The notes under the pieces are model-generated. The model saw only the letters and a program-made list of their open reading frames with translations. It was not told the origin of the DNA and did no database searches. Shown in pieces: positions 96 to 62,601 of a DNA stretch of 64,000 nucleotides (positions are counted from its first letter, which is position 1; every line of letters begins with the position of its first letter). The stretch lies in the NCBI GenBank assembly GCA_026645735.1, contig JAPKMT010000007.1:1-64000 (forward strand). Direction: 5' to 3'. The position numbers and the translations under genes were made by a program. This stretch comes from Flexilinea sp. (lineage in GTDB: Bacteria > Chloroflexota > Anaerolineae > Anaerolineales > Anaerolineaceae).

Positions 96-218
96 CAGCG
101 ATTCGAAATATGGGGAGAATTATTTGTTGATGTGCTGTTTTTGCGCAAAACGCAAAAACAACACATCAACAAGTTTTCTCTTTTTTCTCAAAAGGCTTTT
201 TCAAATTTCGAATTTCTG
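96..218 (+). mobile_element. MITE-like palindromic element, full length, perfect 9-bp target duplication
   Basis: The element opens with CAGCGATTCGAAATATGG and ends with the complementary type CAAATTTCGAATTTCTG. Inside is a 22-bp-arm hairpin (124-145 against 151-172, one mismatch, 5-nt loop). It is flanked by a perfect direct duplication TAATTCGAC at 87-95 and 219-227. The flanks themselves read as an older copy split in two (CAG at 84-86 leading into the duplication, then GGCAATTCGAAATATGG from 228), so this is a nested insertion. Confidence 0.85.
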
Positions 219-284
219 TAATTCGACGGCAATTCGAAATATGGAAAAAACTTTCCTCCTATTCAAACAAATCAGTCCATCGAA

Positions 285-1691
285 TCAACAGGTATATTGA
301 ACTACTTTTCCAGGATTGAGAATATCATTCGGGTCAAACGCCCGCTTGATGCGGGACATGATTTGCATTACTCGTTCTCCTTCGATTTGATACTGATAAG
401 GCAGTTTGGCACTTCCGATGCCGTGTTCACCGGAGACTTTTCCGCCAATTTCTGAAGCATGAGAATATAAACGGTCAAATAGATGATCAATCCGCTCCTT
501 CCATAAGGTCTGGTCAAGCTGATCACGCAGCGCATAAATATGCAGATTGCCATCACCGGCATGACCCATAGATCGAATCCGCAAGCCGCATTCTGTTTCC
601 AAATTTTGGGCGAATTCCACAAACTCAGCAACACGATCAATTGGCACAACCACATCACACTCGTCGATTTCTGAGGTAGAGGCTTTAATAATCTCGAGAT
701 AAGAACTGCGCGGTTTCCACACAGCATCATTGCGCTCATTCGTATCGATAAGGAAAGCATCTTTCGCCCCATTTAGAATACACAATTCAGCGATTTGATC
801 GCTTTCTTTTTCAATCTCAGACAGACTGTTGCCGTCAAATGCCAGCAGCAGATAGGTATTCCCGCTGTGATCAGGAAATCGGCGCCCAAGATATTGTTCA
901 CTGCTGTTCAACATGTCCTGTGTCATAAACTCAATCGAGCGGGGAATCGTTTTCGATTTGAAAATTTCAGGGACAGTCTTGATCGCTGTTGGAAGATTAT
1001 CAAATGGGACCAGCAGACTCTGCAGAAATTTTGGTTTGGGAATCAGCCGCAGAATGATTTTTGTAACAATCGCCAGAGTTCCTTCGGAGCCTGTAATCAA
1101 CTGTACTAAAGAGTAACCGGAACTGTTTTTTGCGATTTTTCCACCAAGCATCAAAACCTCACCTTCGGCGGTGACGACTTCAAGCCCGCGTACATAATCA
1201 CGCGTAACACCATATTTCACAGCAGACATCCCTCCGGCGTTTGTGGATACATTGCCGCCAATACTGGCACTTTTTTCTCCGGGATTCGGCGGGTAATATA
1301 AACCGCGGGCTTCTACATATTCATAGATATCCATGATCAGGACACCCGGCTCAACAGTCAATGTTAAATTATTCTCATCCAATTCCAAAATGCGATTCAT
1401 TTTGGAAAGATTCAACAAAATCCCGCCATACAATGGAATTGCCCCTCCGACCAAACCAGTGCCTTGTCCACGCGGTGTCACGGCAATCTTTTTCTGATTC
1501 GCATACTTTAAAATCTGAGAAACTGCAGTGGTGTCTTGTACATAAACCATCACATCAGGAGCAGAAAACTGACCGGGCATTTCATCATGACAAAAATCCT
1601 CAAGTATGTCTTCTCTGAGGATGACCTGATCTCTCCCGCAAATATTGCATAAGAAATTGATATCTTCCTGGTCTATCTTTTTGTAATCCAT
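285..1691 (-). CDS. FAD-binding lactate/2-hydroxyacid dehydrogenase (LctD/GlcD type)
   Basis: This 468-aa flavoprotein of the GlcD/LctD family oxidises a 2-hydroxyacid such as lactate to the oxoacid. The PCMH-type FAD domain carries the glycine-rich segment PRGQGTGLVGGAI near residues 73-85. The C-terminal FAD-oxidase domain has the GHAGDGNLH and SGEHGIG motifs that shape the active site. The ATG at 1691 was chosen because a GGAG Shine-Dalgarno lies just upstream; a longer reading to 1769 would overlap etfA and lacks such a site. It is the last gene of an etfB-etfA-lctD run, the same set as LctB-LctC-LctD of Acetobacterium, in which Etf bifurcates electrons so that NAD+ can be reduced while ferredoxin is oxidised. 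The exact substrate is inferred; glycolate or 2-hydroxyglutarate is possible. Confidence 0.85.
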   Translation of the reverse strand: MDYKKIDQEDINFLCNICGRDQVILREDILEDFCHDEMPGQFSAPDVMVYVQDTTAVSQILKYANQKKIAVTPRGQGTGLVGGAIPLYGGILLNLSKMNRILELDENNLTLTVEPGVLIMDIYEYVEARGLYYPPNPGEKSASIGGNVSTNAGGMSAVKYGVTRDYVRGLEVVTAEGEVLMLGGKIAKNSSGYSLVQLITGSEGTLAIVTKIILRLIPKPKFLQSLLVPFDNLPTAIKTVPEIFKSKTIPRSIEFMTQDMLNSSEQYLGRRFPDHSGNTYLLLAFDGNSLSEIEKESDQIAELCILNGAKDAFLIDTNERNDAVWKPRSSYLEIIKASTSEIDECDVVVPIDRVAEFVEFAQNLETECGLRIRSMGHAGDGNLHIYALRDQLDQTLWKERIDHLFDRLYSHASEIGGKVSGEHGIGSAKLPYQYQIEGERVMQIMSRIKRAFDPNDILNPGKVVQYTC

Positions 1692-1701
1692 TTTCAACTC
1701 C

Positions 1702-2880
1702 TTATCCAAGTTTTTCAAGAAGTGCTGGAATGACGGAATAAAGATCGCCAATGACCGCGATATTGGCAATTTGATTCATAACAGCATCCGGATCCGTATT
1801 GATGGAGACGATCATCTCACTGGCCTTAATTCCAGCGGCAAATTGAACCGATCCGGAAACTCCGCAAGCAATTAACAATTTAGGCTTCACAGTTCGGCCG
1901 CTTAAACCGATCTGTTTCCTTGCGTCCATCCAGCCAGCCTCGATCAGCGGGCGCGTACATGCCAGATCTCCTCCCAGCCGGTCTGATAAACGGCGCAGCA
2001 ATTCGAGATCCTCTTTTTTCTTGATTCCTCTCCCTGCAACAACCAGAACATCCAAATCTTCGATGTTTTTTATTTTTGGTTTCATCCCAATTTCAAGTTG
2101 TTTGCTTCGACTCCACAAGTTTTGCGGTAGGTCACACAAAATCAGGTTTCCCGATCGAGAGAGATCAGGTTCCATCGCAGAAAAAATCTTGTAACGAACT
2201 GTCGCAAACTGCGGTCGATGATAAGGAGTACGGATGTGCGCCATAATATTTCCGCCAAAAGCAGGGCGAATCTGATCCAGATCAGAATTTGGCTGAATAT
2301 CCAACTGCGTACAGTCCGCAGTTAATCCGGTCTTTAGCCTTGCGGCAATACGTGGAGCCAATGATCGTCCTAACAGAGTCCCTCCGATCAGAATTACAGA
2401 AGGTTTCTGTTTTGAAACATAATCTTCGAGGATTCCGGTATAGCGTTCCACAATAAAATCCTCAAGAATGGGATGATCATAAAGAAATATGGCATCTGCA
2501 CCATAATGGAAAAATTCATCAAAGTTATGACTCAAATGATTACCGATTAAAAGCAGGCTGACCTTAAAACCGACTTTATCTGCTAATTCCCGCGCTTTCC
2601 CAAGCAGCTCAAAAGCAACCGGATGAACTATTTTATCCGGACCGATTTCACCATAAACGGTAATTCCCTGCCATTCCGATTTGTTGGCTGCTGAAATGAC
2701 TTCTTCACGATACTCAAAGACACCTTCCAGGCCCTTCCGAACACAAACTTTACAAAGACGGCAACCAGAATTGATCTGCACCGTATTATCCGGTAAAACC
2801 TCAATGGCTCCAAACGGGCAGAGACTTTCCAAATCCGTATATGAGATTATTTTTTCAGGATGAATAATGATTCCTGCCAT
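1702..2880 (-). CDS. etfA: Electron transfer flavoprotein alpha subunit with N-terminal [4Fe-4S] domain
   Basis: This is a 392-aa EtfA. Residues 1-60 form a half-ferredoxin domain with C21-P and the CxxCxxC group C40/C43/C46, enough for one [4Fe-4S] cluster. Residues about 75-260 are the Etf alpha/beta domain, and the C-terminal third is the FAD-binding domain (LSGRTVKPKLLIACGVSG, then SINTDPDA). The extra Fe-S domain is known from bifurcating Etf subunits such as LctC and CarE of Acetobacterium and fits a ferredoxin-linked role. It lies 10 nt downstream of etfB and just upstream of the dehydrogenase gene, so co-transcription is likely. Confidence 0.92.
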   Translation of the reverse strand: MAGIIIHPEKIISYTDLESLCPFGAIEVLPDNTVQINSGCRLCKVCVRKGLEGVFEYREEVISAANKSEWQGITVYGEIGPDKIVHPVAFELLGKARELADKVGFKVSLLLIGNHLSHNFDEFFHYGADAIFLYDHPILEDFIVERYTGILEDYVSKQKPSVILIGGTLLGRSLAPRIAARLKTGLTADCTQLDIQPNSDLDQIRPAFGGNIMAHIRTPYHRPQFATVRYKIFSAMEPDLSRSGNLILCDLPQNLWSRSKQLEIGMKPKIKNIEDLDVLVVAGRGIKKKEDLELLRRLSDRLGGDLACTRPLIEAGWMDARKQIGLSGRTVKPKLLIACGVSGSVQFAAGIKASEMIVSINTDPDAVMNQIANIAVIGDLYSVIPALLEKLG

Positions 2881-2890
2881 AGATCCTCCT

Positions 2891-3679
2891 TTAGGTCATT
2901 TTCAGCCTGGTTAACTTCATCATCAGAATTTCTGCTATTTCATCCGGGAGTCCTTGCAGGACTTCATTTTCTTTTTCATGAACTGGCGGAAAAATTCGAA
3001 CAACGCGCGTCGGGGATCCACTTAATCCATAATGATTCTTATCCTGATCCGGCATATCCGCAAAGGTTAGTATTTGTATCGGTTTATCTTTTGTACTGAT
3101 TTTCCGCTTATAGGATGGCAAACGAGGTTCGTAAATGTCTTTTTCGACGGTAATCAAACAGGGAAAATTGATTTCCATTGTTTGCGTAAAATTCCCCAAA
3201 TCACTTTTTACAATCATTGAATTTTCAGACAGATCAACAATTTCCAACACATTGGTTGCATGCGGAATATCAAGCAATTCCGCTAATTCTGCTCCAACCT
3301 GTGCTGTATCTCCATCGGTTGTCTGTTTTCCGCAAATAAGTAAATCAGGCATACCCAGCGATTTGACTGCCTGGGATAATGCATAGGAAGTTGCCAGGCA
3401 ATCCGCACCTCCAAAAATACGATCTGTCAAGAGCACGCCATGCTCAATTCCCATCGAAAATGCTTCCCTGAGAACAGCCTCGCTGTACACAGGTCCCATC
3501 GTCAAAGCAGTAGTTTCAGCGCCATAATTTACCTGAATTTGTAGCGCTGTCTCAATAGCAAACAAATCATACGGATTCATTTTGGCTGCTACGGCACTAC
3601 GTTTCAGAACGCCAGTTTTTTCATCAATATCCACTTGCGTTGTACCAGGCACCTGTTTGATACAAATCAGAATTTTCAT
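2891..3679 (-). CDS. etfB: Electron transfer flavoprotein beta subunit
   Basis: This is a 262-aa EtfB starting MKILICIKQVPGT, with the nucleotide-binding segment CGKQTTDGDTAQVG about 120 residues in, the usual EtfB signature. The ATG at 3679 is preceded by AGGGAG at good spacing; the upstream in-frame ATG at 3697 adds six residues and is less likely. It is the first gene of the etfB-etfA-lctD run. In bifurcating Etf the beta subunit holds the second flavin and the NAD(H) site; bifurcation here is inferred from the gene set, not from individual residues. Confidence 0.92.
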   Translation of the reverse strand: MKILICIKQVPGTTQVDIDEKTGVLKRSAVAAKMNPYDLFAIETALQIQVNYGAETTALTMGPVYSEAVLREAFSMGIEHGVLLTDRIFGGADCLATSYALSQAVKSLGMPDLLICGKQTTDGDTAQVGAELAELLDIPHATNVLEIVDLSENSMIVKSDLGNFTQTMEINFPCLITVEKDIYEPRLPSYKRKISTKDKPIQILTFADMPDQDKNHYGLSGSPTRVVRIFPPVHEKENEVLQGLPDEIAEILMMKLTRLKMT

Positions 3680-3723
3680 ACATTTTTCTCCCTGCAAAAA
3701 ACCGCTATGCGCAATTCATTTGG

Positions 3724-3803
3724 CAGCAATTCGAAATATGGACAATCTTATAAAATAGAGAAAGAAAATAGGTTAATGAATCGTCATTAATTCGAAATAT
3801 GTG
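3724..3803. repeat. Decayed MITE-like copy
   Basis: CAGCAATTCGAAATATGGA starts at 3724 and a second TTAATTCGAAATATG lies at 3787-3802. Both are the same terminal word in the same orientation with no hairpin between them. This is a degenerate or composite copy in the gap upstream of etfB. Confidence 0.5.
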
Positions 3804-3844
3804 TTCCCATGAATCCTGTAACGCAAATGAAATTGCCTCAATCA

Positions 3845-4498
3845 TCAAGTAATTTTTTCGTTTTTTCCATTTTTTTCCTGATGGTTCATGCTCGCAGGTT
3901 GTTCACACAAGACTAATTCTCCTTTATGGGAGAAATCCGGGATCAGCGGTCGAAATGATCCCGCCGGTACCGAGACAATCTGGGGGCGAAAAGCAGTAAT
4001 TTGGATCAGTTTTTCGCACGGTGAGCTACTTGAAAAGTCCAAATCTTTATTGGAGCGGATTGAAAAATTCGATTGCCGGCAGGCATAAGCCGCTTCATTT
4101 TGACAAAGAACCGAATGAGCGATATTGTTATTGTCATCCGTTTCGCCGAAAAGGATAACCGAAGGTTTGTAATTATCAATAAAGTGATCAAAAACTGAGT
4201 GTGCAACATCCATACTCAGATCTGTGTATATTGGATCGTCATAGACAAAAATGCGATCTGCACCGAACCGAAAAAAATCTCGTGCTTTTCTGCTGATTTG
4301 ATTTCCGATTACAACCAAAGCGACTTTTACGCTGGTTTGATCAGCCAATTCACGAGCTTTACTTAATAGTTCAAAGACGATTGGATGCAGATTCCCATCT
4401 GGCTGCTGCTCGCCATAAACAGCAATATCCAGATAATCCGTCTTACTGAATTTTCGATTTTCGCTTTCAGAACTTGCACACATTTGAGATCGAAGCAT
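3845..4498 (-). CDS. Truncated EtfA paralogue (N-terminal domain only)
   Basis: This 217-aa product aligns with the N-terminal Etf domain of the neighbouring full-length EtfA: IAVYGEQQPDGNLHPIVFEL matches the TVYGEIGPDKIVHPVAFEL region, and the end GELVLCEQP matches GNLILCDLP. It stops at the interdomain linker, so the FAD-binding domain is absent. The segment matching GRSLAPRIAARLKTGLTADC is replaced by a divergent, Asn-rich stretch. Start choice: the ATG at 4498 follows the upstream stop (4503-4505); an alternative start at 4549 would overlap the methyltransferase gene by about 47 nt. It may be a decaying duplicate or a repurposed domain. Confidence 0.75.
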   Translation of the reverse strand: MLRSQMCASSESENRKFSKTDYLDIAVYGEQQPDGNLHPIVFELLSKARELADQTSVKVALVVIGNQISRKARDFFRFGADRIFVYDDPIYTDLSMDVAHSVFDHFIDNYKPSVILFGETDDNNNIAHSVLCQNEAAYACRQSNFSIRSNKDLDFSSSSPCEKLIQITAFRPQIVSVPAGSFRPLIPDFSHKGELVLCEQPASMNHQEKNGKNEKIT

Positions 4499-4502
4499 GA
4501 TT

Positions 4503-5300
4503 TTAGCTACCTTGTTCAAATTTTTTGGATCGCTGCCGTACGATTTCAAATATTAAGATTCCGGCAGCCATCGCTGCATTTAAGGATTCGACATCGCCTG
4601 GCATTGGAATGAAGATATTTCCATCAGATAAGTCCTGCGCTGTCTGGGAAATTCCATTCGCTTCCGATCCGATGATCAGCGCAGTAGGTTTACTCAAATC
4701 ATAATCCCAGCAGGATTTTCCGTCATCCATAATCGAAGCAAGCACTTGTAAATCTGGAAAGGGTATTAATCGCGAAGCGATTTCTTCCCAACCCAACTGA
4801 ATCAAAGGAATCATAAAATGAGACCCCATGGCAGAGCGCAGCACTTTTGGTGCATATGGATCTGTACAGCCTGGTGCAAGAATCAGAAGATCAACCGCTG
4901 CAGCAGCAGCCGTCCGAATCATTGTTCCAAGATTTCCCGGATCGCGAATACTGTCGAGTATGATAATAAAATCAAGCTTTTCAGGTATTACTGGCCGGGT
5001 CATCTCCATTACAGCCAGTACGCCTTGCGGCATTTCAGTATCAGAGATTGTTTTCATCAGTTGCGGAGTGACTTCTTCTGTTTCGACTCCCTGTGTGACA
5101 AACGATTGTACAAGTGCTTCAGCTCTTGGAGAAAGGGGATCAGTATAGACCAAAAGACGGCAATTTTCCTTTTTTTTAATCGCCTCTTCGATCAGACGGA
5201 CTCCTTCCAGTACATAACAACCGGATTCATCCCGTTCTTTTTTTTGCGCGATCAACTTTCTGATCTGTTGAATTTTTGGATTTTGGCTGGAAGTAATCAT
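4503..5300 (-). CDS. TrmH/SpoU-family RNA 2'-O-methyltransferase
   Basis: This is a 265-aa SPOUT-class RNA methyltransferase. An N-terminal substrate-binding domain (SSQNPKIQQIRKLIAQKKER) precedes the SpoU domain. The family motifs are complete: SIRDPGNLGTMIRTA (motif 1, catalytic Arg), ALIIGSEANGIS (motif 2) and IPMPGDVESLNAAMAAGIL (motif 3, trefoil-knot SAM site). Such proteins methylate ribose 2'-OH groups in rRNA or tRNA; the exact nucleotide cannot be read from sequence. The downstream EtfA fragment begins within a few bases of its stop. Confidence 0.9.
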   Translation of the reverse strand: MITSSQNPKIQQIRKLIAQKKERDESGCYVLEGVRLIEEAIKKKENCRLLVYTDPLSPRAEALVQSFVTQGVETEEVTPQLMKTISDTEMPQGVLAVMEMTRPVIPEKLDFIIILDSIRDPGNLGTMIRTAAAAAVDLLILAPGCTDPYAPKVLRSAMGSHFMIPLIQLGWEEIASRLIPFPDLQVLASIMDDGKSCWDYDLSKPTALIIGSEANGISQTAQDLSDGNIFIPMPGDVESLNAAMAAGILIFEIVRQRSKKFEQGS

Positions 5301-5470
5301 ATTGAATGGCTGAAAAAATACACTTTCTTTTCATGGCATCATTAATCAATCAATGCCAAATGAGTTATGACAGGATCGAAACAAAGAACATTTCGTCCTA
5401 CAAAAGTTATCCATTTCCGATTTTAAATTTTACTGTAACTTTTTCGATTTTTCTGCATCTAAAAAAGTAA

Positions 5471-5560
5471 CTTGAAATTTGGAAGAGCCTTTTGAAAAAG
5501 GAGAAAGTTTGTTGCAGTGTTGTTTCGGGGCTTTTTATTAAAACATCACTTCAAAAAATA
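5471..5560 (-). repeat. Decayed MITE-like copy
   Basis: CTTGAAATTTGGAAGAGCC followed by TTTTGAAAAAGGAGAAA and then TTGTTGCAGTGTTGTTT matches the left part of the reverse-orientation element. The right arm and terminal repeat are lost or eroded. It occupies the gap between the methyltransferase and the rhodanese gene. Confidence 0.4.
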
Positions 5561-5633
5561 AACCTTCTCTCCTGTCAAATCGGTCCATCCAAATCAAGAA
5601 AGAAATATAAATTGAAATCTTGAGGACGTAAAG

Positions 5634-6041
5634 ATGAAACAATATCTGACAATAATTATTTTCGCTATAATTGTACTGCTTCTCGGTGCATGTATATCGA
5701 AACCATCGACATCAACTGTCGAAATTGTCCCTGGAATAAAGAAATTAAAGGCAGCTGAAGCAAAAGAGTTGTTCGCCAAGGATTCGTCATTTGTTCTGGT
5801 CGATGTGCGTGAACCCTACGAGTATGCAGAAGGACACATTCCCAATTCCATAAATATTCCTTTGTCAGGTGTTGTTAAAGGCGTGGATGAGCTGAAACTG
5901 GATAAAGAAAGTCCTGTTGTGGTTTATTGCAGATCAGGAAGACGCAGTGCAGAAGCAGCGACAGCTTTAGAAAATGCCGGTTATAAAAATATCTACGATC
6001 TCGGCGGAATTATTGACTGGCCTTATGAAACTGTCAAATAA
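5634..6041 (+). CDS. Rhodanese-domain lipoprotein
   Basis: This 135-aa protein has an N-terminal hydrophobic segment ending in the lipobox LLGAC (Cys20), so it is predicted to be an extracytoplasmic lipoprotein. A single rhodanese domain follows, with the start motif VLVDVREPYEYAEGHIPNS and the active-site loop VVYCRSGRRS carrying the catalytic Cys. It probably transfers sulfane sulfur or takes part in envelope thiol chemistry. GAGGA lies upstream of the ATG. It stands alone between two repeat-bearing gaps. Confidence 0.9.
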   Translation: MKQYLTIIIFAIIVLLLGACISKPSTSTVEIVPGIKKLKAAEAKELFAKDSSFVLVDVREPYEYAEGHIPNSINIPLSGVVKGVDELKLDKESPVVVYCRSGRRSAEAATALENAGYKNIYDLGGIIDWPYETVK

Positions 6042-6091
6042 ACCAGGAATAAACCGATTCGAAATTTCGTTCAATTCTTCGTAATTCCAGG

Positions 6092-6214
6092 CAGCAATTC
6101 GAAATATACGAAGAAGTTTATGTTGTTGTGTTGTTTTTGCGCAAAGCGCAAAAACAACACAACAACATTTTTTCTCTTTTTTCTCAAAAGGTTTTTCCAA
6201 ATTTCGAATTAATG
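6092..6214 (+). mobile_element. MITE-like palindromic element, full length
   Basis: CAGCAATTCGAAATAT at the left and CCAAATTTCGAATTAATG at the right enclose a perfect 22-bp-arm hairpin (6121-6142 against 6146-6167, loop AAA). The flanks AATTCCAGG (6083-6091) and AATACCAGC (6215-6223) match at 7 of 9 bases, a probable aged target duplication. It lies between convergent genes. Confidence 0.8.
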
Positions 6215-6219
6215 AATAC

Positions 6220-6277
6220 CAGCGATTTCAAATTTTTCCGATTGATTCGAAAAACTGGTTGATATTTCTAATTTCAG
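6220..6277. repeat. MITE-like compact copy
   Basis: The 58-bp unit CAGCGATTTCAAATTTTTCC ... GATATTTCTAATTTCAG directly follows the full-length copy. It has diverged terminal repeats and an internal TTCGAA, without the long hairpin. Confidence 0.5.
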
Positions 6278-6343
6278 TCAAAACACATAAAAAAACTCAC
6301 AGCCACGTACAATATCGGCCAGTGAGTTTTAACTTAATTTACA

Positions 6344-7105
6344 TCAGGGTTTCCACGGATACCATGGATACCATGGATAACAATTTCCGCCCGGTAACCA
6401 ATAACAATAAGGATCGTCCGGTCCGGGTCGGCCAGGTTTAGGCGGTCCAGGCCTTTTTGTCGGAGTATAATAGCCGCTTACCACAGTAAATTTGGATGTA
6501 ATTTCTCCACATTCTACACCGGTAGGACTTTTTAATACATAGGTGCTGTAGTATTGATCACCCGGCGATAACAAGGCTGTCATTCCAAGTTGAACATTCA
6601 CTGTTTCCCCGGGTGCAGTCTCTTTGCGAATATTGAAGCGGGTACTTCCGATTTGCCATCCTTTTTGAAATTCAAACTGATAATCTTTCGTCCAGGTACA
6701 TGTTCCGGTGTTTCTTACTTCCCATTCTTTATAAAAAACTTCTCCTTCTGCTACCTTTGCTCCGCTGGCAAACGTTGGTTCAGATACTACTTCCAAACCC
6801 AGGGTACAGATGGATCCATCAGGTTGTTGAACAAGGCATTGACCTTCCGGCGCTTTTTCGACAGGAAGCTGTGTAACAAAGTTGGATTGACTTTCCGGAG
6901 TTGCTGTAACGACAACATAGATGATATACGGTGTCTGGGTTGGATTTGCCAATACAATTTGATTATTTTCAGCAGGTGAAACGTTCAAATTTGGAGTTGC
7001 TGTCTGAAACGGTTTGATTTCAATCTGGGCTGTTGCTGTAAAACCAAGAATACTGAAAGCTGTCAATGAAAGCAGTATCCCGAAAATAATTTTCCTCTTT
7101 CTCAT
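6344..7105 (-). CDS. Secreted NBR1-type Ig-like domain protein with Pro/Trp/Tyr tail
   Basis: This 253-aa exported protein has a signal peptide in residues 1-27 (KRKIIFGILLSLTAFSILGF), then a Thr/Pro-rich linker. An Ig-like fold of the NBR1 (Next to BRCA1) type follows, visible as VFYKEWEVRNTGTCTWTKDY, the SPGDQYYSTYVLKSPTG strand and CGEITSKFTV. The C-terminal tail is unusual: PGPPKPGRPGPDD, then CYW...YPWYPWYPWKP, the last part encoded by a short tandem DNA repeat near 6353-6380. The start at 7105 has GGAGAGG upstream. Surface binding or cell-wall association is inference. Confidence 0.8.
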   Translation of the reverse strand: MRKRKIIFGILLSLTAFSILGFTATAQIEIKPFQTATPNLNVSPAENNQIVLANPTQTPYIIYVVVTATPESQSNFVTQLPVEKAPEGQCLVQQPDGSICTLGLEVVSEPTFASGAKVAEGEVFYKEWEVRNTGTCTWTKDYQFEFQKGWQIGSTRFNIRKETAPGETVNVQLGMTALLSPGDQYYSTYVLKSPTGVECGEITSKFTVVSGYYTPTKRPGPPKPGRPGPDDPYCYWLPGGNCYPWYPWYPWKP

Positions 7106-7242
7106 AAATTCCTCTCCTTTTTCCATTAACGATTATCACAAAAATTAGTTTCATAATCTGCTAACAGGATAACTTTTCAGAAAAACCGTTGGATAAAACC
7201 CCTTTTTGAAAGCACGCAAAAACCAGAGATTGATAATCCGGT

Positions 7243-9333
7243 TTACGGACAAACAATCCCCTCTTCCTGTAGCACTTGGGACCGGGGCACCAGTATTTGA
7301 ACTCCCTGCTCCAAGAAAGTTTCCTGCGGTTCATAATAACAGAGGGTAGGAATGGAAACCCACTTGACAAACAGATCATTTTCTTCGCTGAAATCCAAGC
7401 CTTCACCCTGGAATTTAATCCAGAGCGGTTCACTGATGATGATATCGAATCGCTGTTTTTTCAGATCTTCGATATACGGTTGAAAAAATTGGCCATTATT
7501 CGCCATTGCTTCATCCATCATCCATTTTTTTTCATAGTCCGCTATTAAGGTAATTGGGGGAACCAAACCGAAAGTCAGCATCTGTCTTTGATCCATAAAA
7601 AGGATCTCTCCATCTGTATTTGCAGCAACGAATTGCTGAATTTTTTGAACAGCGTCCATTGTCGTGTCAGGAGCTGGATACTTCTTCGGTTCAATTTGCA
7701 TGGCCTCATGGTAGACGGGAATCAGAATAGCTGGGATCAATAGAAGACTTACCCATTTTTCTGTACGCATGTTCTCTATCAGCCAGTTCCCCATTCCAGA
7801 TTCCCAGGCCAGCACAGCGATAATCAATAATCCAATCAAGAACATATCCAGGTTATGAAGATTGGACCCGCCCCCGATTTTTACGGATATCAGAATACCA
7901 ACCCCCAGAAAAGCGCCTTGCCCGAGGATTAATACGAATCGCTGCCAAAAATTTAAATTCCATTTTTCTTGAGTCGCCCAGAAAACCAGGATTAATATCA
8001 AAGGCAGAATCGCTGTGAGTAAACCAAGCAGAATTCCCGGTTGATAGGTTTCATTGGGCCAAAGACGATCCCACAGCAACGGCTGGCGTGTCAGGAAATA
8101 CTGAAACCATTCCGGAGAAAGCATTGCAGGTGCATTCCTGACAGTTGTCCCTGAAATCGATTCAATGGAATCCTGCGCTCCTTGTGCGGTCATCATTCCC
8201 ACATCAGCAATTTTTTTAAAAAATTCCAGAATAGAATCTTTTTTCAGGTAATATACAGCGCCCAATAAACCTGCAATACCCAACAGAATGGATCGGATCC
8301 AGCGTTTCCTGGGGTTAAGATCATAAGATCGCCGCTTTTCAATAAAAGCGAGCATAACAGCAAAAGCTGCCGGAGCTACTACCCAGGTTGATCGTGACAT
8401 CACGGCATAAATGCCTGCCAAAAAAGTCAATAGAACGGCAGGTATGGCCGAGAATTTTCTGCCAACAGCAACCAAAATGGCAGCAATAACGAGCGGTGTG
8501 TATATTGGACCTTGCATTAGAAATAACATCGCCCACAAACCGGCGGCAAATTGGATCTTTTTATTCAAACCATCTGTCTTCGAAAGTAGAATCCATCCTA
8601 AAATCGCATAAGGCAGCGTGAATAAAAAGTCATTCCATCCTCGCATCATCGCAATTGTAACTCGCGGCAGCAAGAAGATTGCACCCCACAAACTCTGTCT
8701 GCCGATATCAATATAGGCAGGAATCGTCTGATCCTGCGGCCAATGGTAAAGATGTTTTCCGAACAGAACTGAATAATCCCACATCCGGTTCCCCTCTGAC
8801 CAGCCCACACTGAACGGATAATTGTTTACATCACGAAATTGGCTGCATACTGCAAACAGAGTACTAAAACACAGGCTGGCAGAGACCAATGCCCCCATCG
8901 TAATTCGATTCTCGTGAGAAAGCACCCATGCACCAAGAATGATCGCAGAAGCATAAAGAAATAATCGTATCGGTTGTGCATGATAAGGTTCGCTCCAGCG
9001 ATGAAAGATATAAAGATAAATGGGGAGGAAACAAATCAAACTCGCAAGGAGACGGCGAAGGAGTGCGAATCTGGATTTCAACAAAAATACAGGCTGCAGT
9101 ATCATTGGTCGCCAAATGAGCAGTCCGAAAAAGCCAAGCATCATAATCGTAACAAGTCCAATAAATAAAAACGAAACAACAATACTGCCTTTTTGGAGAA
9201 ATTCAGCATAACGCTCATATACTGCGATACTGCTTTTCACTGCGACAAAAAGCGTGATCATACTATATATAATTTTTTTCAACAACTCTCTTTGTCTCAT
9301 GATTCTCTGGATTTCTTTAACCAGTTTTTCCAT
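7243..9333 (-). CDS. Large polytopic membrane protein of unknown function
   Basis: This 696-aa protein has a basic N-terminus and then about a dozen hydrophobic segments up to roughly residue 560. A soluble C-terminal domain of about 130 residues follows. The segment SVGWSEGNRMWDYSVLFGKHLY between early membrane segments sits where glycosyltransferases of the GT-C type place their first extracytoplasmic loop. The overall layout (multispan, then a soluble tail) resembles such lipid-linked sugar transferases, but no family was recognised with certainty. No clear Shine-Dalgarno precedes the ATG. It is a single gene flanked by repeat-rich gaps. Confidence 0.7.
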   Translation of the reverse strand: MEKLVKEIQRIMRQRELLKKIIYSMITLFVAVKSSIAVYERYAEFLQKGSIVVSFLFIGLVTIMMLGFFGLLIWRPMILQPVFLLKSRFALLRRLLASLICFLPIYLYIFHRWSEPYHAQPIRLFLYASAIILGAWVLSHENRITMGALVSASLCFSTLFAVCSQFRDVNNYPFSVGWSEGNRMWDYSVLFGKHLYHWPQDQTIPAYIDIGRQSLWGAIFLLPRVTIAMMRGWNDFLFTLPYAILGWILLSKTDGLNKKIQFAAGLWAMLFLMQGPIYTPLVIAAILVAVGRKFSAIPAVLLTFLAGIYAVMSRSTWVVAPAAFAVMLAFIEKRRSYDLNPRKRWIRSILLGIAGLLGAVYYLKKDSILEFFKKIADVGMMTAQGAQDSIESISGTTVRNAPAMLSPEWFQYFLTRQPLLWDRLWPNETYQPGILLGLLTAILPLILILVFWATQEKWNLNFWQRFVLILGQGAFLGVGILISVKIGGGSNLHNLDMFLIGLLIIAVLAWESGMGNWLIENMRTEKWVSLLLIPAILIPVYHEAMQIEPKKYPAPDTTMDAVQKIQQFVAANTDGEILFMDQRQMLTFGLVPPITLIADYEKKWMMDEAMANNGQFFQPYIEDLKKQRFDIIISEPLWIKFQGEGLDFSEENDLFVKWVSIPTLCYYEPQETFLEQGVQILVPRSQVLQEEGIVCP

Positions 9334-9690
9334 TTCTATAAAAATTTAAAAATAATCAAAAACCTTCCATAAAATTATATTCACTAAGTCATTGACACTT
9401 GCAACAATCAGCATTCTAAAATGCGAGGAGAAAAACTTATTCGAAAGCAGAAATTTGAAATTTTGAACCGTCCTTCTAATAAAAAAATCCTCTCAGGGTT
9501 TCGAATTCTTGTTCGATGATAGAATATAGCCAGCAATTTTAAATACAGGATTGCGAGACAAAAGGAAGATTTTTCCCTGAGTTCTGCAAAGTCTGTGAAG
9601 ACAAAATCAATAAACAATTTTTCTTACTCGCAATACGGTCTATCACAACTAAGATTTTAATCGCGATTGAAGATTCATGCAGCAGCAATT
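9334..9690. other. Intergenic gap with eroded repeat words only
   Basis: No gene is supported here. Scattered pieces of the dispersed element occur (GCAGAAATTTGAAATTTTG near 9446, CCAGCAATTTTAAATAC near 9530) but no complete unit. Short open frames on the minus strand lack codon character and ribosome-binding sites. Confidence 0.5.
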
Positions 9691-9743
9691 CAGAAATTCG
9701 AAATTTTGAAAAGCCTTTAATAAAAAAGAGAGATATTTTTCAG
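9691..9743 (-). repeat. MITE-like half copy abutting rnhA
   Basis: CAGAAATTCGAAATTTTGAA, then AAGCCTTTAATAAAAAAGAG, matches the left end of the reverse-orientation element. It ends directly at the rnhA start codon, so the rnhA leader is made of repeat sequence. Confidence 0.5.
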
Positions 9744-10196
9744 ATGACAGAAACCAAACCAAAAGTCATGATTTACACCGATGGGGCATGTAAAGGGAAT
9801 CCTGGTCCAGGCGGATATGGTGTGATTCTCCTCTTTAATGAAAAGAAAAAAGAAATCTCCGGTGGAGAACCTCAGACAACCAATAATCGAATGGAACTGA
9901 TGGCTGTCATCGAAGGATTGCAGGCATTGAAAAAATCATGTGAGGTAACGCTATATTCAGATTCCAAATATGTCGTTGATATGATCGAAGGAGGATATCT
10001 GAATCGTTGGAAAAAGAACAACTGGATGCGGAACAAGAAAGATCCGGTAAAAAACGTGGATTTATGGGAAAAAATTTACCAGCTCCTGAAACTCCATGAT
10101 GTAAAAATGATCTGGGTTAAAGGACACGCGGAAAATTCCTGGAATAATCGATGTGATGAACTCGCCGTTGCAGCCGCTGCCAAATACCAGAACTGA
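9744..10196 (+). CDS. rnhA: Ribonuclease HI
   Basis: This 150-aa protein is a full-length bacterial RNase HI, which cleaves the RNA strand of RNA:DNA hybrids. The catalytic acidic residues are in place: the first Asp in MIYTDGACKGNPGPGGYG, Glu in NNRMELMAVIEGL, Asp in TLYSDSKYVVD and the last Asp in NNRCDELA. The basic protrusion (LNRWKKNNWMRNKKDPVKN) is present. It precedes xseAB, grouping nucleic-acid enzymes, but a gap of about 200 bp with its own promoter signal separates them. Confidence 0.96.
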   Translation: MTETKPKVMIYTDGACKGNPGPGGYGVILLFNEKKKEISGGEPQTTNNRMELMAVIEGLQALKKSCEVTLYSDSKYVVDMIEGGYLNRWKKNNWMRNKKDPVKNVDLWEKIYQLLKLHDVKMIWVKGHAENSWNNRCDELAVAAAAKYQN

Positions 10197-10239
10197 ATGC
10201 CATCATCTCACTACGCAGAAAGAATTCAAAGTTAAGGCC

Positions 10240-10341
10240 GACCTGTCGAAAATTGAGAGAAAAATCATTGTTCTTTTATTTTTACTTGAAGAGAAAAAAC
10301 AAAAGAACAATGAATCATTCATCCTATATTTTGAATCACTG
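10240..10341 (-). repeat. Decayed MITE-like copy with intact hairpin
   Basis: A hairpin with 18-bp arms and one mismatch lies at 10266-10283 against 10295-10312 (CATTGTTCTTTT type). The end TTTTGAATCACTG at 10329-10341 is a variant of the terminal repeat. The left end is eroded. The xseA promoter lies immediately downstream. Confidence 0.5.
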
Positions 10342-10392
10342 AACGACAAAAAAAAGAATTATTAAGATTTCTGAGTGATTGCGATATGCAAA

Positions 10393-10401
10393 TGTTATAC
10401 T
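10393..10401 (+). promoter_or_regulatory. Extended -10 of xseA, candidate leaderless promoter
   Basis: TGTTATACT is an extended -10 element whose TATACT ends 7 nt before the ATG at 10409. This puts the expected transcription start at or next to the start codon. No Shine-Dalgarno is visible, so translation would be leaderless. No convincing -35 was found. Confidence 0.45.
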
Positions 10402-10408
10402 TTTTAAT

Positions 10409-11623
10409 ATGCTGAATCAAGGGCTTCTCTCGTTTGTAACACCTTCCTTATCGGTTTCAGAAATCAACCGGCAAATTAAGAATTTGCTTGAACAGGATCC
10501 GATTCTAGAAGACATTTGGATTCGCGGGGAGATATCCAACCTTTCTATTCCCGTTTCCGGACATGCCTACTTTACCCTTAAAGATGCAAAAAGCAGTTTG
10601 AAATGCGTCATCTGGCGCAGCAATCTGACTGCAGCAGCCAATGCAGCTTTGAAAAACGGAAATGATGTAGAAGCACATGGCAAAATTAGTGTGTATGAAC
10701 GGGATGGAATTTATCAATTATATGCGGATGAAATCCGGATTGCCGGACTTGGAAGGCTGTACGAGGAGTTTCTACGCTTGAAAAACCAACTGGAAAAGGA
10801 AGGCTTATTTGAACCAGCCCGAAAAAAGAAAATCCCGGAAATTCCGCAAACCATTGGCATCATCACATCCCGTACCGGCGCCGCGCTGCAGGATGTGCTG
10901 AATACGATCCGAAAACGCTGGCCGATCGCAGCGATACTCCTGTCTCCGGCCGCCGTTCAGGGGGCAGAAGCCCCGGCAGCATTGTTCAACGCATTTGAGA
11001 GACTGGAAAAAGAAAATCCGGATGTCATCATCATCGGACGAGGTGGGGGTTCCATTGAGGATTTGTGGGCTTTTAACGATGAGTTCCTGGTTCGCAGAAT
11101 TGCAGAAAGCCACATACCGGTAATCAGTGGTATCGGACATGAGACTGATTTTACATTGGTTGATTTTGTGGCTGACTTGCGAGCACCGACACCAACGGGT
11201 GCCGCAGTATCAGCAACGCCGGATATTCAGGAAATTCGCGGATACCTGGATGCGCTAAGCCTGCAATTAAATAATTACATTCGAGATAAAATTCAATCAC
11301 ACAGAAGAGATCTGCAGATTTTCTCACACCGCTTGGAGCTCCGTGCACCATTACAACAGATCCAGCAAGAAAAACAGACTGTCGATTCACTGCAGATCCG
11401 AATGACGCAGCAGATGGCTCATTTTCTGCAACAGGAAAGGCTGCGTTTAACAGGAATGGAGCAACGACTTAGCGCCGTGAATCCAGAATCCATCTTAAAA
11501 AGAGGGTATGCATTAATTGAAAAAGAAGGGCAAGGACTGATTACATCCGTAACTCAATTAAAACGGCAAGATGGTATTCGAATTCTGATGGCTGATGGCA
11601 GCGTTGATGCAACAATCCAATAG
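10409..11623 (+). CDS. xseA: Exodeoxyribonuclease VII large subunit
   Basis: This is a 404-aa XseA, the catalytic subunit of exonuclease VII, which degrades single-stranded DNA from either end. The N-terminal OB-fold is seen in VSEINRQIKNLLEQDPILED and WIRGEISNLSIPVSGHAYFT. The catalytic domain carries GIITSRTGAALQDVLNTIRKRWP, IIGRGGGSIEDLWAFNDE and ISGIGHETDFTLVDFVAD. A coiled-coil C-terminus follows. A TTG at 10379 would extend it by ten residues, but the ATG at 10409 agrees with the family start. The small subunit gene follows directly. Confidence 0.95.
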   Translation: MLNQGLLSFVTPSLSVSEINRQIKNLLEQDPILEDIWIRGEISNLSIPVSGHAYFTLKDAKSSLKCVIWRSNLTAAANAALKNGNDVEAHGKISVYERDGIYQLYADEIRIAGLGRLYEEFLRLKNQLEKEGLFEPARKKKIPEIPQTIGIITSRTGAALQDVLNTIRKRWPIAAILLSPAAVQGAEAPAALFNAFERLEKENPDVIIIGRGGGSIEDLWAFNDEFLVRRIAESHIPVISGIGHETDFTLVDFVADLRAPTPTGAAVSATPDIQEIRGYLDALSLQLNNYIRDKIQSHRRDLQIFSHRLELRAPLQQIQQEKQTVDSLQIRMTQQMAHFLQQERLRLTGMEQRLSAVNPESILKRGYALIEKEGQGLITSVTQLKRQDGIRILMADGSVDATIQ

Positions 11624-11639
11624 CAATGAAGGTAAAAAA

Positions 11640-11864
11640 ATGACTGAAAAAGAAGAAGACTTGATTCCTTTTGAAGAAGCGTTTGAGAAACTTCAGAAAA
11701 TTGTCGAAAAACTTGAAAACGAGACAGTCAATCTTGAACAGGCATTAACCTTGTTTAAAGAAGGACGAAACCTGTTGAAAATTTGCGATCGACACCTCAG
11801 TGATGCCGAAATTAAAATCCGAACTATCGATGAAATGAACCAGGATCAGAGCAATGTTTCTTGA
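11640..11864 (+). CDS. xseB: Exodeoxyribonuclease VII small subunit
   Basis: This is a 74-aa XseB with the signature PFEEAFEKLQKIVEKLEN followed by LEQALTLFKEGRNLLK, two helices that wrap around XseA. The ATG at 11640 has GAAGG upstream; an in-frame upstream ATG at 11595 would overlap xseA and is not needed. Its end overlaps the start of the next gene by 11 nt, so the three genes are translationally linked. Confidence 0.93.
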   Translation: MTEKEEDLIPFEEAFEKLQKIVEKLENETVNLEQALTLFKEGRNLLKICDRHLSDAEIKIRTIDEMNQDQSNVS

Positions 11865-12303
11865 ATTATTTCAAAATCCTGCATTAATCGCAGGTTTTTT
11901 TGCTATGTTCACAGCTCAATTGCTGAAACCCTTTGCGAATTATTTCATGGAACATGAATGGGACTGGTTCCTTTTAATTGACAGCGGCGGGATGCCCAGT
12001 TCCCATTCCGCCATGTCAACTGCGACCGCAGTCGCAATCGGATTCACTGATGGTTTTAACACCTCTGTCTTTGCTGTAGCGCTCGTTATATCCATCATCG
12101 TGACTTACGATGCAGCTAACGTACGATGGCAGTCCGGTTTACATGCGCAACGGATCAATCAATTAATTCGTGATGTTTTTAACCGGCAACAAATCAATGA
12201 AGAATTACTCAAAGAAGTGATCGGCCATACACCGCGCCAAGTATACGCAGGAGTACTTTGGGGAATTATCGTTGCATTAATTGTCGTAAGGTTGATGGCA
12301 TGA
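11854..12303 (+). CDS. Divergent PAP2 family (DUF212, YuiD-like) membrane protein
   Basis: This 149-aa membrane protein belongs to the DUF212 or divergent PAP2 group, related to acid phosphatase/vanadium haloperoxidase. The phosphatase-like motif SGGMPSSHSAMSTATAVAI is followed by hydrophobic segments and YDAANVRWQSGLHAQRIN. Length and motif order fit the family. A role in lipid phosphate metabolism is plausible but unproven. It sits between xseB (11-nt overlap) and the SGNH gene (ATGA overlap), in one operon. Confidence 0.88.
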   Translation: MFLELFQNPALIAGFFAMFTAQLLKPFANYFMEHEWDWFLLIDSGGMPSSHSAMSTATAVAIGFTDGFNTSVFAVALVISIIVTYDAANVRWQSGLHAQRINQLIRDVFNRQQINEELLKEVIGHTPRQVYAGVLWGIIVALIVVRLMA

Positions 12304-13355
12304 TGAAATATTCAAACAGGCAGCAAAAAAAAAGGAAATTCGGTATTTCAATACTCATTATGAGCGTTTTCGTCATAATGGTAGTTTTTGGTATCCTGCT
12401 TTTCTTTGTTGCAGATGGGAAAATTCAGCGTGTGCATGCTGATGAAACTTCAACAATTTCCGCACAGCAAACGCGCCTGCAATCAATGCTGGATCAGGTT
12501 GTTGTTCAAGCGAATATTTCTTCCGCTGCCACAGCGCTGCCAACGATTCAACCGACTTCCATCACGATTCAGGAACCCACTGCATCCAAATTAAAACTTG
12601 ACCCGGCAGATTGGAAGAATTGGCCCGTTTTACCACAAACAGTCAGTCAAAAAATCATCGATTTATATCGAACCGGTTTGGAAAATGGCAATAATCCGGC
12701 CGCATTCAGCAAAGTAGGTGATTCCAACAGCGTCATGCCATCTTTTCTATCCTGTTTTGATTATGGTCAAAACGGATACGCCATCGGTTCATATGCTTCA
12801 TTGGAAGAAACGATCCGGCAATTTCAGTGGTCTTTTTCACGCGAATCCAGAGCAGCCAAAAATGGAGCAACAGCGCTTGATTTAGACGGTTATCACTGGT
12901 ATGAGGATGATATCTGCTGGCCATATGAATCGGCGACAAGCTGTGAATACCGACTATGGACTCCCTCGATTGCTTTCATCGCACTCGGTACCAACGATGC
13001 TTACATGAGGATTGATATTTTCGAGACTCATCTGCGATCCTTAATTCAGAAAACACTGGATCGATTTATCGTTCCGATTTTGGTAACCAAAGCCGACAAT
13101 CTGGAGGGAGATGAAAGCTTCAATAGCGTGATCGCCCGTTTGGCTGCTGAATTTGATATTCCATGCATGAATCTCTGGCGTGCTATGGAACCGCTTCCCA
13201 ACCATGGATTGAGGGAAGGAGACGTCCATCCAACTTCGAATCAAACATCGCTCTGCAATTTTTCCAATACTGATTTGCAAAATTTTGGTTGGACAGTCCG
13301 CAATCTAACCGCGCTTCAAACGTTGGACCGGGTTTGGCAGCTGCTCAATCCTTGA
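12300..13355 (+). CDS. Membrane-anchored SGNH/GDSL-type hydrolase
   Basis: This 351-aa protein has a basic N-terminus and one membrane segment (residues about 11-35), then an extracytoplasmic Thr/Ser/Pro-rich stretch. The hydrolase-like domain shows the SGNH blocks: KVGDSNSV (block I Ser), ALGTNDAYM (block III Asn) and GDVHPTS (block V Asp and His). The predicted activity is ester hydrolysis on an envelope glycan or lipid; the substrate is unknown. The ATGATG start at 12300 overlaps the stop of the preceding gene. Confidence 0.75.
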   Translation: MMKYSNRQQKKRKFGISILIMSVFVIMVVFGILLFFVADGKIQRVHADETSTISAQQTRLQSMLDQVVVQANISSAATALPTIQPTSITIQEPTASKLKLDPADWKNWPVLPQTVSQKIIDLYRTGLENGNNPAAFSKVGDSNSVMPSFLSCFDYGQNGYAIGSYASLEETIRQFQWSFSRESRAAKNGATALDLDGYHWYEDDICWPYESATSCEYRLWTPSIAFIALGTNDAYMRIDIFETHLRSLIQKTLDRFIVPILVTKADNLEGDESFNSVIARLAAEFDIPCMNLWRAMEPLPNHGLREGDVHPTSNQTSLCNFSNTDLQNFGWTVRNLTALQTLDRVWQLLNP

Positions 13356-13412
13356 TTCAGCAAGAGTATATTTTGTTATTTTCAACCGATTCTACCGAGC
13401 ATATTTTTCAGG

Positions 13413-43942: not shown

Positions 43943-43962
43943 AATTAACCAAATAAGATGTC

Positions 43963-48276: not shown

Positions 48277-48474
48277 AATTCTCCCCTGTTTCAATTTCGA
48301 AATATTAATATATCAGAAAGCAGGAATAAAAAATCTGCAAGGCAAAGAATTCATACAATAACCTGCAATTCGAATTATTGACCGGCTTTTCGAATAACAA
48401 GAGACAAATTATTGTTCAATTAGCTGCACATTTCCAAAAAAATGGCAGATTATTCTTAGAAAGTAAGGCTGAGA

Positions 48475-50323: not shown

Positions 50324-50347
50324 AAGAACACCTATAAGGTTTTTTCC

Positions 50348-50469
50348 TGTTATCCGAAATATGATATGAATTTCTTATTGTTCTTGTGGTTTTGCGCTTA
50401 GCGCAAAACCACAAGAACAATAATTCTCTTCCTTTATTCGAAAGTTCAATCCAAAATTAGAATTGCTAA
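50348..50469 (+). mobile_element. MITE-like palindromic element with perfect hairpin
   Basis: A perfect 23-bp-arm hairpin (50376-50398 against 50402-50424, loop TTA) is the longest perfect stem in the window. The left end TATCCGAAATATGAT and right end CCAAAATTAGAATTGCT are diverged terminal repeats. It separates the permease gene from the ArsM-fusion gene. Both arms have changed together (TTCTTGTGG/CCACAAGAA) relative to other copies. Confidence 0.75.
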
Positions 50470-51916: not shown

Positions 51917-52135
51917 GTTACTGCCATCCTTTACATATAGAATATTTTCAATATGTAAATATACAACTCACATCCAAAAAAGTCAATGTGAAATCCGGAA
52001 TTTTAATGAAATTCGATGACAAAACATCCATTCAAAAAATCGGAATGATAAATTGTTGCAGTGTTGGTTTTCAGCGCAAGATAAAGACCGTAGAACAATT
52101 GATAATCCACATCCTGTTTCGGAAAACGGATTATT

Positions 52136-54594: not shown

Positions 54595-54672
54595 CAGCGA
54601 TTCGAAATATGGGGAGAATTCTTTGTTGTTCTAATGTTTTTCCAAATAGCAAGTCTGTATTTCGAATTGCTA
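54595..54672 (+). mobile_element. MITE-like element, left-arm form
   Basis: This 78-bp unit, CAGCGATTCGAAATATGG then GGAGAATTCTTTGTTGTT, jumps to TCCAAATAGCAAGTC and ATTTCGAATTGCTA. It lacks the right hairpin arm. The same rearranged interior occurs in the copy at 61003, so these two form a subtype. Confidence 0.7.
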
Positions 54673-59698: not shown

Positions 59699-59776
59699 CC
59701 AATAATTCGAAATATAGACTTGCGATTCGAATCAAGAGGGAAAAATTAGTTGATCATGTAAAACTACAAAAAAAAT
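59699..59776. repeat. Decayed MITE-like copy
   Basis: CCAATAATTCGAAATATAGA starts the unit, and a second GCGATTCGAATCAAGAGGG follows. No hairpin arm is complete. It directly precedes the next copy. Confidence 0.4.
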
Positions 59777-61002: not shown

Positions 61003-61091
61003 CAGCAATTCGAAATATGGGGAGGACTCTTTGTTGTTGTGATGTTTTTCCCGATTGATTCGAATAGCAAGTCGATATTTTAAATTACATG
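61003..61091 (+). mobile_element. MITE-like element, left-arm form
   Basis: CAGCAATTCGAAATATGG then GGAGGACTCTTTGTTGTTG, followed by GATTCGAATAGCAAGTCG and ATTTTAAATTACATG. It shares the rearranged interior of the copy at 54595. It lies in the leader of msrAB. Confidence 0.65.
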
Positions 61092-62122: not shown

Positions 62123-62151
62123 AATGTCGTTAACGGACTGATATAAAAACG

Positions 62152-62198
62152 ATGGATGCTCATTGAAAAGCGTGGCACTGATTCCTGTGAGCATCCAT
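62152..62198 (+). terminator. Hairpin after msrAB
   Basis: An 11-bp perfect stem ATGGATGCTCA/TGAGCATCCAT encloses a 25-nt loop. No T-run follows (TGTATTAACC), so termination strength is doubtful. Confidence 0.5.
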
Positions 62199-62522
62199 TG
62201 TATTAACCGCCGGCAATTCTAACGAAAGGAAGTTTATTTGTGATTCGATTGATTCGAAAAGCTGATTCAAATTTCAAATTACTGGTTAGCCGTAAATAAA
62301 TTGAAATGCAAAACTCAAAAACGGATTCGATTTCGATTATTTTAAGTACAAAGCCAATGCGCATAAAATCATCAAAATATATGACAAACTTCTTTTGCCT
62401 CTGGCTGTCGATTATTTACAAATCGAAAATAGTATATACTTTAAAAAATCCGTTTATATGATTTACAGAATCAATTGATCTTGCGAAAATTATTAAAATG
62501 ATCAGAGCCTCATCTTTATTTG
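62199..62522. other. Gap with one eroded repeat and no gene
   Basis: A short unit GATTCGATTGATTCGAAAAGC ... CAAATTTCAAATTACTGG near 62242-62284 is an eroded right half of the dispersed element. The rest is A/T-rich, with promoter-like words (TATACTTTAAAAA near 62433), and has no supported coding frame. Confidence 0.4.
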
Positions 62523-62601
62523 CAGCAATTCGAAAATTGGAAAAGCTCTTTGAGAAAAACGACACAACAACAAATAATCCTTCTCATAATTCGAATCGCT
62601 G
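62523..62601 (-). mobile_element. MITE-like compact element
   Basis: This 79-bp unit runs from CAGCAATTCGAAAATTGG to ATAATTCGAATCGCTG, with the interior GAGAAAAACGACACAACAACA. It has nearly the same left-arm deletion as the copy at 33300. Flanking 9-mers CTTTATTTG and ATCTGTTTG share 6 of 9 bases. Confidence 0.75.

Follow-up and report, generated by a model that had tools for sequence, protein, structure and literature searches.

A dense family of miniature inverted-repeat elements with covarying hairpin arms and an apparently inverting loop in a Flexilinea genome

The DNA described here, termed the window, is a stretch of 64,000 nucleotides from Flexilinea sp. (assembly GCA_026645735.1, contig JAPKMT010000007.1, positions 1 to 64,000 of the forward strand). 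It is part of contig C77 in a draft genome (G000) of 86 contigs and 3.35 Mb, with a completeness of 92%. The window carries many copies of a miniature inverted-repeat transposable element (MITE), which at full length is 123 bp long, has no coding capacity, and combines inverted ends of about 18 bp with a central 22-bp palindrome. An initial annotation of the window had recognized about 20 related units. These units are real but were undercounted, as a profile trained on 63 paired-end copies, some of them from the window, finds 26 copies at E<1e-3 and 29 at E<0.01 (the same 26 plus 3 weaker matches), or one copy per 2.2–2.5 kb. In addition, the motif ATTCGAAAT occurs 27 times in the window compared to 2.7 expected, a count reached in 0 of 100 shuffles. 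The comparison genome is Flexilinea flocculi TC1 (G010), a member of the same genus (Chloroflexota, Anaerolineaceae). The copies in the window are as follows; each was placed by a profile match unless other evidence is given, and the target-site duplication (TSD) is scored as matching positions out of nine.

96-218, plus strand: full-length MITE, perfect 9-bp duplication TAATTCGAC on both sides
3724-3777, minus: partial copy (model positions 70-123), E 5e-5
5466-5581, minus: degraded copy, TSD 7/9; orthologous F. flocculi gap also occupied
6092-6214, plus: full-length copy, TSD 7/9; F. flocculi gap without profile match
10223-10341, minus: old copy, TSD 2/9; F. flocculi gap without profile match
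14669-14715, minus: partial copy
16437-16560, minus: full-length copy, TSD 1/9; F. flocculi gap also occupied
18120-18202, minus: old degraded copy adjoining a younger copy
18207-18329, minus: full-length copy of a young subfamily, TSD 6/9
26096-26208, plus: full-length copy with shortened arms
30349-30470, plus: old full-length copy
30589-30709, plus: old full-length copy
33300-33376, minus: 77-bp derivative lacking one palindrome arm; TSD perfect, CTTCTTTAC
34473-34588, plus: old copy; F. flocculi gap without profile match
36140-36197, minus: 58-bp derivative without palindrome (profile match 36140-36187), within a 1,364-bp stretch that corresponds to 30 bp in F. flocculi
37350-37473, plus: full-length copy, TSD 7/9, within the same 1,364-bp stretch missing from F. 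flocculi
43914-44032, minus: old copy; F. flocculi gap also occupied
45029-45072, minus: partial copy
46935-47056, plus: old copy whose full alignment with the F. flocculi copy marks the same insertion; hairpin decayed in both
48364-48423, minus: partial copy
50347-50468, plus: copy with eroded ends and TSD (3/9) and a palindrome paired at 21/21; 7 bp in F. flocculi, 142 here
52026-52123, minus: old partial copy
54595-54672, plus: deletion derivative, one arm lost
59701-59755, minus: partial copy
61003-61091, plus: deletion derivative, one arm lost, TSD 6/9
62523-62601, minus: 79-bp deletion derivative with two partial profile matches, the weaker at E 0.0099

All 12 of the units that had been given coordinates at the outset lie at least partly under a profile match, that at 62523 with one of its two matches at E 0.0099. 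The short units at 33300, 36140, 54595, 61003 and 62523 (58–89 bp) are indeed members of the family, but they are deletion derivatives, and the arm sequence GTTGTTGTG read from the window is present but characterizes one of several subfamilies. Among the 15 window copies covered end to end, the TSD is preserved at 8–9 of nine positions in one (96-218), at 7 in three, and at 1–6 in the others. Since only one copy retains such a TSD, most of the window copies are old. End-like motifs flank the TSD of the 96-218 copy on both sides (window 84-241), and this copy seems to have inserted into or beside remnants of other copies. For the copy at 37350-37473, absence from F. flocculi may belong to a larger change, as the surrounding 1,364-bp stretch is missing there.

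Target duplications were assessed in the 265 copies matched over the full length of the profile (146 from F. flocculi, 100 from the window's own genome and 19 from genome G003). The flanks match at a mean of 0.570 when exactly 9 bp are compared, and at 0.28–0.315 for lengths of 5–8 and 10–13 bp. This duplication is matched at 8–9 of nine positions in 73 copies, 27 of them perfectly, compared to 0.08% of random pairings; it is weaker or unrecognizable in the other 192.

Empty sites were sought in F. flocculi, whose RpoB is 95.8% identical to that of the window genome and forms its sister in a 14-sequence tree, a comparison made without G002 (no rpoB match) and G008 (a fragment) and with masked residues in some rpoB proteins. 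The window is syntenic with F. flocculi contig C2, where aligned matches average 82% DNA identity; contig C1 has no long syntenic match to the window region. Among 59 orthologous gaps with a profile match, 25 are occupied in both species; of the rest, 22 are occupied solely in F. flocculi and 12 solely in the window's genome (22, 22 and 10 of 54 when gaps longer than 1 kb are left out; 16, 7 and 5 of the 28 within the window), where copies decayed beyond the reach of the profile score as absent and occupation in both is not always the same insertion. Two of the 12 one-sided gaps that were aligned, at C44:65602 and C11:193950 of G000, are base-precise empty sites with the 9-bp target, the element being present in F. 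flocculi. A static structural repeat that was never mobile and is inherited vertically would fit the 25 gaps occupied in both species, at least one of which (46935) clearly holds the same insertion, but it is refuted by the precise empty sites, the 9-bp duplications and the 34 of 59 gaps occupied on one side, and can be set aside for practical purposes. Copies would have spread both before and after the split of the two Flexilinea species.

The ends are also conserved genome-wide, as a transposon interpretation had anticipated: CAGNNATTCGAAATNTGG with at most 2 mismatches has 469 + 417 matches in the window's own genome, and the reversed-pattern control has 0. The profile search (E<1e-3) finds 165 copies in 817 kb of the own genome, where they make up 2.0% of bases, and 221 copies (2.9%) in 800 kb of F. 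flocculi, with 0 in reversed sequences; extrapolation gives about 680 and about 970 copies per genome, respectively. With 1 mismatch, the end pattern occurs 516 times in the own genome, 439 times in F. flocculi, 102 times in G003 and 7 times in G008, and 0–2 times in each of ten other genus genomes and 47 more distant genomes, where the reversed control gives 0–1 per genome. Matches to the full element occur in 5 of 61 genomes; that in the fifth, G049, spans 52 bases at E 1.2e-4.

A search for an autonomous transposase with the same ends, proposed in the initial annotation along with the end and empty-site checks, leads to F. flocculi, and each of these checks favors a transposon. The partner insertion sequence (IS) lies at 2873-4504 of locus L045 (NZ_DF968179.1), is 1,632 bp long and contains a 446-aa transposase open reading frame (ORF). 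Its ends are CAGCAATTCGAAATATGA and CAGTAATTCGAAAAATGA, and GCATTCTGT stands on both outer sides as a perfect 9-bp duplication. The IS resembles the MITE in this duplication and in its ends, where only a few positions depart from the MITE pattern; it differs in its length, its coding capacity and, by eye, the lack of a central 22-bp palindrome. One intact copy is found in F. flocculi. Directly before it, overlapping ORFs with repeated CHCEEGVSPTKQS-like motifs occupy 58-1376 of L040; these motifs are a DNA-level repeat.

The transposase is matched in 4 of 101 genomes (F. flocculi at 100%, two at 40–42%, and one fragment). Among the best 80 of 151 contig stretches with relatives, which apart from F. 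flocculi itself are 36–44% identical, record titles name Chloroflexi, cyanobacteria, several proteobacterial groups and archaea. Of these 80 loci, 23 contain a complete IS with CAGCAATTC-type ends, with a perfect 9-bp TSD in 22 and 8/9 in one, and a strict pattern search of the same loci returns these 23 IS-size pairs and no MITE-size end pairs with a matching TSD. The AlphaFold model of the transposase (pLDDT 89.9, from 43 sequences) has Tn5 transposase or its inhibitor as its top 6 Foldseek matches (E 1.6e-9 to 3.2e-5, TM 0.39–0.55), the best being Tn5 transposase at E 1.6e-9 and TM 0.49; searching the solved structures by sequence yielded no informative match. D128, D216, D217 and E344 are invariant in the 43 sequences and are inferred to be catalytic. 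By its predicted fold, the transposase is a Tn5-like DDE enzyme of the IS4 superfamily.

Family names below this level fit less well. A PF13808 search of four genomes gives one weak match, which is the partner IS in F. flocculi. PF13808 and PF01609 are the domains of the ISAs1 family, and assignment to that family was rejected at 20.6 bits against a cut-off of 32.3 and 19.2 against 23, respectively; at E<=0.01 the two domains match 14 and 12 of the 43 relatives. NCBIfam holds no family for the F. flocculi transposase at E<=0.01, and its IS4 model matches 13 of the 43 relatives weakly, the query not among them. One plasmid homologue is annotated as 'ISNCY family transposase', and membership of the IS in the ISDol1 subgroup is a possible lead. 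In the own genome, a PF01609 search finds one transposase, a truncated IS1634-type enzyme at the start of a contig (L031, G000 C83, 2-1057; NCBIfam 234.5 bits), and some 300 bp downstream of it lies a MITE copy. This enzyme was rejected as the partner, as the two end matches at its locus belong to that one MITE copy, which lies beside it and not around it.

Taken together, the ends, the TSD, the empty sites, the IS and its predicted fold argue that the units are, almost certainly, a MITE family mobilized by an IS of the F. flocculi type. The element is short, noncoding and multicopy, with inverted ends, a 9-bp TSD and empty sites, and it has its ends and TSD in common with an autonomous IS, all of which are features of a MITE. 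The Tn5-fold DDE transposase of the 1.6-kb IS would bind the ends of about 18 bp and excise the element, which would then be joined to a staggered cut of 9 bp; both the role of this transposase in moving the MITE and these cut-and-paste steps are inferences. Elements of the REP/REPIN type, moved by a single-strand (Y1) transposase, TnpA-REP, are likewise palindromic, intergenic and present in high copy number. However, they have no TSD, and the 9-bp duplications, terminal inverted repeats and DDE-fold partner refute this very improbable alternative.

The family adds a new member to the MITEs, and its partner belongs to a poorly named IS group. The initial statement that no described family has these ends stands for the MITE, of which a limited search of the literature on Flexilinea or Anaerolineae transposons and MITEs found no description, and Rfam gives 0 matches within the window at the gathering-score level; it does not extend to the IS group, which is widespread. 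Correia, ERIC and Chunjie elements differ from the present MITE in their sequences and partners. According to a review of bacterial MITEs (PMC10969869), these elements resemble it in being short, with inverted ends, direct repeats and tens to hundreds of copies, ERIC reaching up to 711 copies in Photorhabdus luminescens; a term search of the review's main text does not return the word 'hairpin'. Dense MITEs are already known, and here one is accompanied by a partner IS, TSDs, sister-species empty sites and hundreds of copies.

A further feature, additional to what had been noticed initially, is the behavior of the palindrome, whose arms covary strongly and whose loop appears to invert. Selecting copies by at least 17 of 21 pairs biases covariation, and hence copies were chosen by a TSD of at least 8/9 and a length of 118–128 bp, which gives 68 copies (5 of 73 were dropped by length). 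In the 22-bp stem of these copies, 94.8% of cells are paired and 19 of 22 pairs have changed on both sides. Doubly changed cells number 161 compared to 42.3 in shuffles, a contrast that is not a probability because cells include inherited changes. The covariation score is 0.345, whereas shuffling gives 0.113 (0 of 500) and sliding no more than 0.084. Moreover, 31 pairs of nearest neighbors contain 35 compensated changes, compared to 2.3 expected if changes were independent and 0–1 in shifted controls. Among 64 copies with eroded ends and TSD (of 235 examined), 12 keep at least 20 of 21 pairs, compared to 0.02 expected from end divergence; this pair count takes the best center, for which shuffled elements average 11.2 and reach 14 at most. 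Finally, 18 remnants of 57–93 bp carry a TSD of at least 8/9 and have lost the palindrome wholly or partly, their internal sequence being mostly different, which suggests that the palindrome may occasionally be deleted.

Such covariation could arise if the palindrome were needed in cis for transposition, so that only well-paired sources propagate and compensation is selected in source lineages. The copies with a TSD of at least 8/9 do have the best hairpins (mean 19.05 compared to 16.2 of 21), and the stem is kept in all subfamilies of alignment A2. However, the autonomous IS has, by eye, no such stem, remnants without the full palindrome carry intact TSDs (though the loss may postdate insertion), near-perfect arms persist in the 12 eroded copies, and loop inversion is not predicted; a cis requirement is therefore improbable.

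The loop was examined in one homogeneous subfamily, using its 30 best copies. The three loop bases have a heterozygosity of 0.656 compared to 0.058 in the arms, 0.099 in the ends and 0.095 in the spacers, and the largest value at any position outside the loop is 0.46. With the ends in fixed orientation, 15 loops read RRA, 13 its reverse complement TYY, and 2 otherwise. In a wider set of 95 of the 265 copies, which have at least 19 pairs and a usable center, 80 loops are RRA or TYY (38 and 42, respectively), and 61 read GNA on one of the two strands, where chance would give one eighth, and are closed by GC pairs. At the GCGC tips that flank the loop in the 30 copies, all 15 substitutions are C-to-T or G-to-A, the pattern that cytosine deamination would leave at an exposed hairpin tip or a methylated site. 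DNA mini-hairpins with a GNA loop and at least two closing G-C pairs are reported to be extraordinarily stable (PMC4686876); the d(GCGAAGC) molecules there are synthetic oligonucleotides, whereas the MITE, many copies of which have a GC-closed GAA or GGA loop at the center, has hairpins predicted from sequence.

Independently of transposition, the central 22-bp palindrome would form hairpins where DNA is single-stranded at the replication fork, and the nascent strand would switch template inside it. Such a switch would copy one arm onto the other, so that the arms stay complementary while their sequence drifts, and would also invert the loop. On the patterns of arms and loop, template switching is probably, though by no means securely, their cause, and the combined explanation of MITE, partner IS and template switching is held with good confidence. 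Two studies describe comparable mutations: DNA polymerase template switching gives arm homogenization and spacer inversion (PMC8604942), and in rRNA genes loop inversions are few, which the authors link to conserved loops, with 69 clusters of loop inversion only, above simulation (PMC8794818). The MITE is like both in arm homogenization and loop or spacer inversion, but they concern yeast genes and rRNA genes, whereas the MITE offers many copies of one mobile element with loop orientation near 1:1. Among the papers listed by a literature search, no title or opening of an abstract describes this combination of MITE, hairpin, palindrome and template switching.

Alternatively, the hairpin could be kept by selection on RNA, transcribed copies serving as terminators or 3′-end stabilizers to the benefit of host or element. 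Several features of where the copies sit bear on this. Of 388 copies (E<=1e-3), 1 has more than half of its length within a predicted gene, although 81–88% of the sequence is coding by the ORF-based calls of a custom caller; the initial statement that no copy interrupts a gene is thus borne out in a larger sample, and gene insertions would have been removed by selection. In tandem gaps, 89 of 136 copies are closer to the upstream 3′ end than to the downstream start, as RNA selection would have it. Within window positions 1-19,000, the hairpins of the copies at 6092 and 18207, two of six long profile matches, head the list of terminator-like sites, which number 31 compared to 18.4 in shuffles, and the perfect arms of some eroded copies also agree with selection on RNA. 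However, the tandem gaps have no orientation preference (67:69), and copies are equally dense in divergent gaps (117 in 51.8 kb) and convergent gaps (47 in 22.1 kb), at 2.3 and 2.1 per kb of remaining intergenic DNA compared to 1.7 in tandem gaps. Doubly changed cells (161) exceed single-sided changes in which standard pairing is retained (33), only one of the two species has a copy in 34 of 59 gaps, and the loop is inverted about half the time, unlike in rRNA genes, where inversions are few (PMC8794818). RNA selection is therefore unlikely, although it retains appreciable weight, and since it accounts for the arms but not for free loop inversion, a DNA-level process at the fork is favored. 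The gap distribution fits the removal of harmful insertions, and a 3′-end role is also compatible with it.

Several observations weigh against the combined explanation. The transposase has no match in the window's own assembly (92% complete), so that any current mobility there would be hypothetical, and by eye the IS and the MITE have in common only the terminal 18 bp or so, with no subterminal sequence. In the 68 copies, 77 of 1481 cells are unpaired, and the cell counts include changes inherited by related copies. The 31 neighbor pairs contain, besides their 35 compensated changes, 54 single-sided changes and 5 that are double but unpaired, and within the 30-copy subfamily uncompensated changes outnumber compensated ones by 17 to 12. 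The stems have decayed in the other 52 of the 64 eroded copies, and hairpins in gaps occupied in both species tend to be worse (mean 16.3 compared to about 18 of 21, p 0.09); with only 12 of the 64 keeping the stem, maintenance in place is partial. As orientation is uncertain for some subfamilies of the 95-copy set, the 1:1 ratio rests mainly on the 30 copies, of which only 13 have GNA or complementary loops (GNA/TNC). Template switching alone is also insufficient to account for the loops being RRA or TYY; hairpin stability in DNA and cytosine deamination at the exposed tip are guesses as to how RRA is kept. A fuller account, tentative and slightly less probable than its opposite, is that interstrand template switching, or else nicking of the hairpin tip followed by repair, rewrites the center in place so often that loop orientation has reached equilibrium, with triplets turning over within RRA/TYY, arms evolving in concert, and very stable loops settled on because they promote or survive the process.

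This apparently self-correcting, inverting hairpin sets the MITE apart as a new variant. If template switching is the cause, each of hundreds of copies would be an independent natural recorder of template switching at the fork in a bacterium, and rates of loop inversion and arm correction could be measured in nature, strain by strain. Because its loop inverts freely, the family can separate RNA selection from DNA template switching as sources of compensatory change.

Two minor observations concern the genomes compared. An additional RpoB-like ORF, divergent in sequence and 1313–1332 aa long (a 520-aa piece in G007), is present in several members of the genus (G006 C3, G007 C18, G012 C2 and C38, and G013 C23); it scores about 1100 bits compared to about 1500 for housekeeping RpoB. 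In addition, a 1,455-bp segment at 73403-74857 of C77 in G000 is 93.7% identical to F. flocculi C2 (stretch 72404-73858) and lies off the syntenic diagonal; being above the 82% average, it is possibly recently shared DNA.

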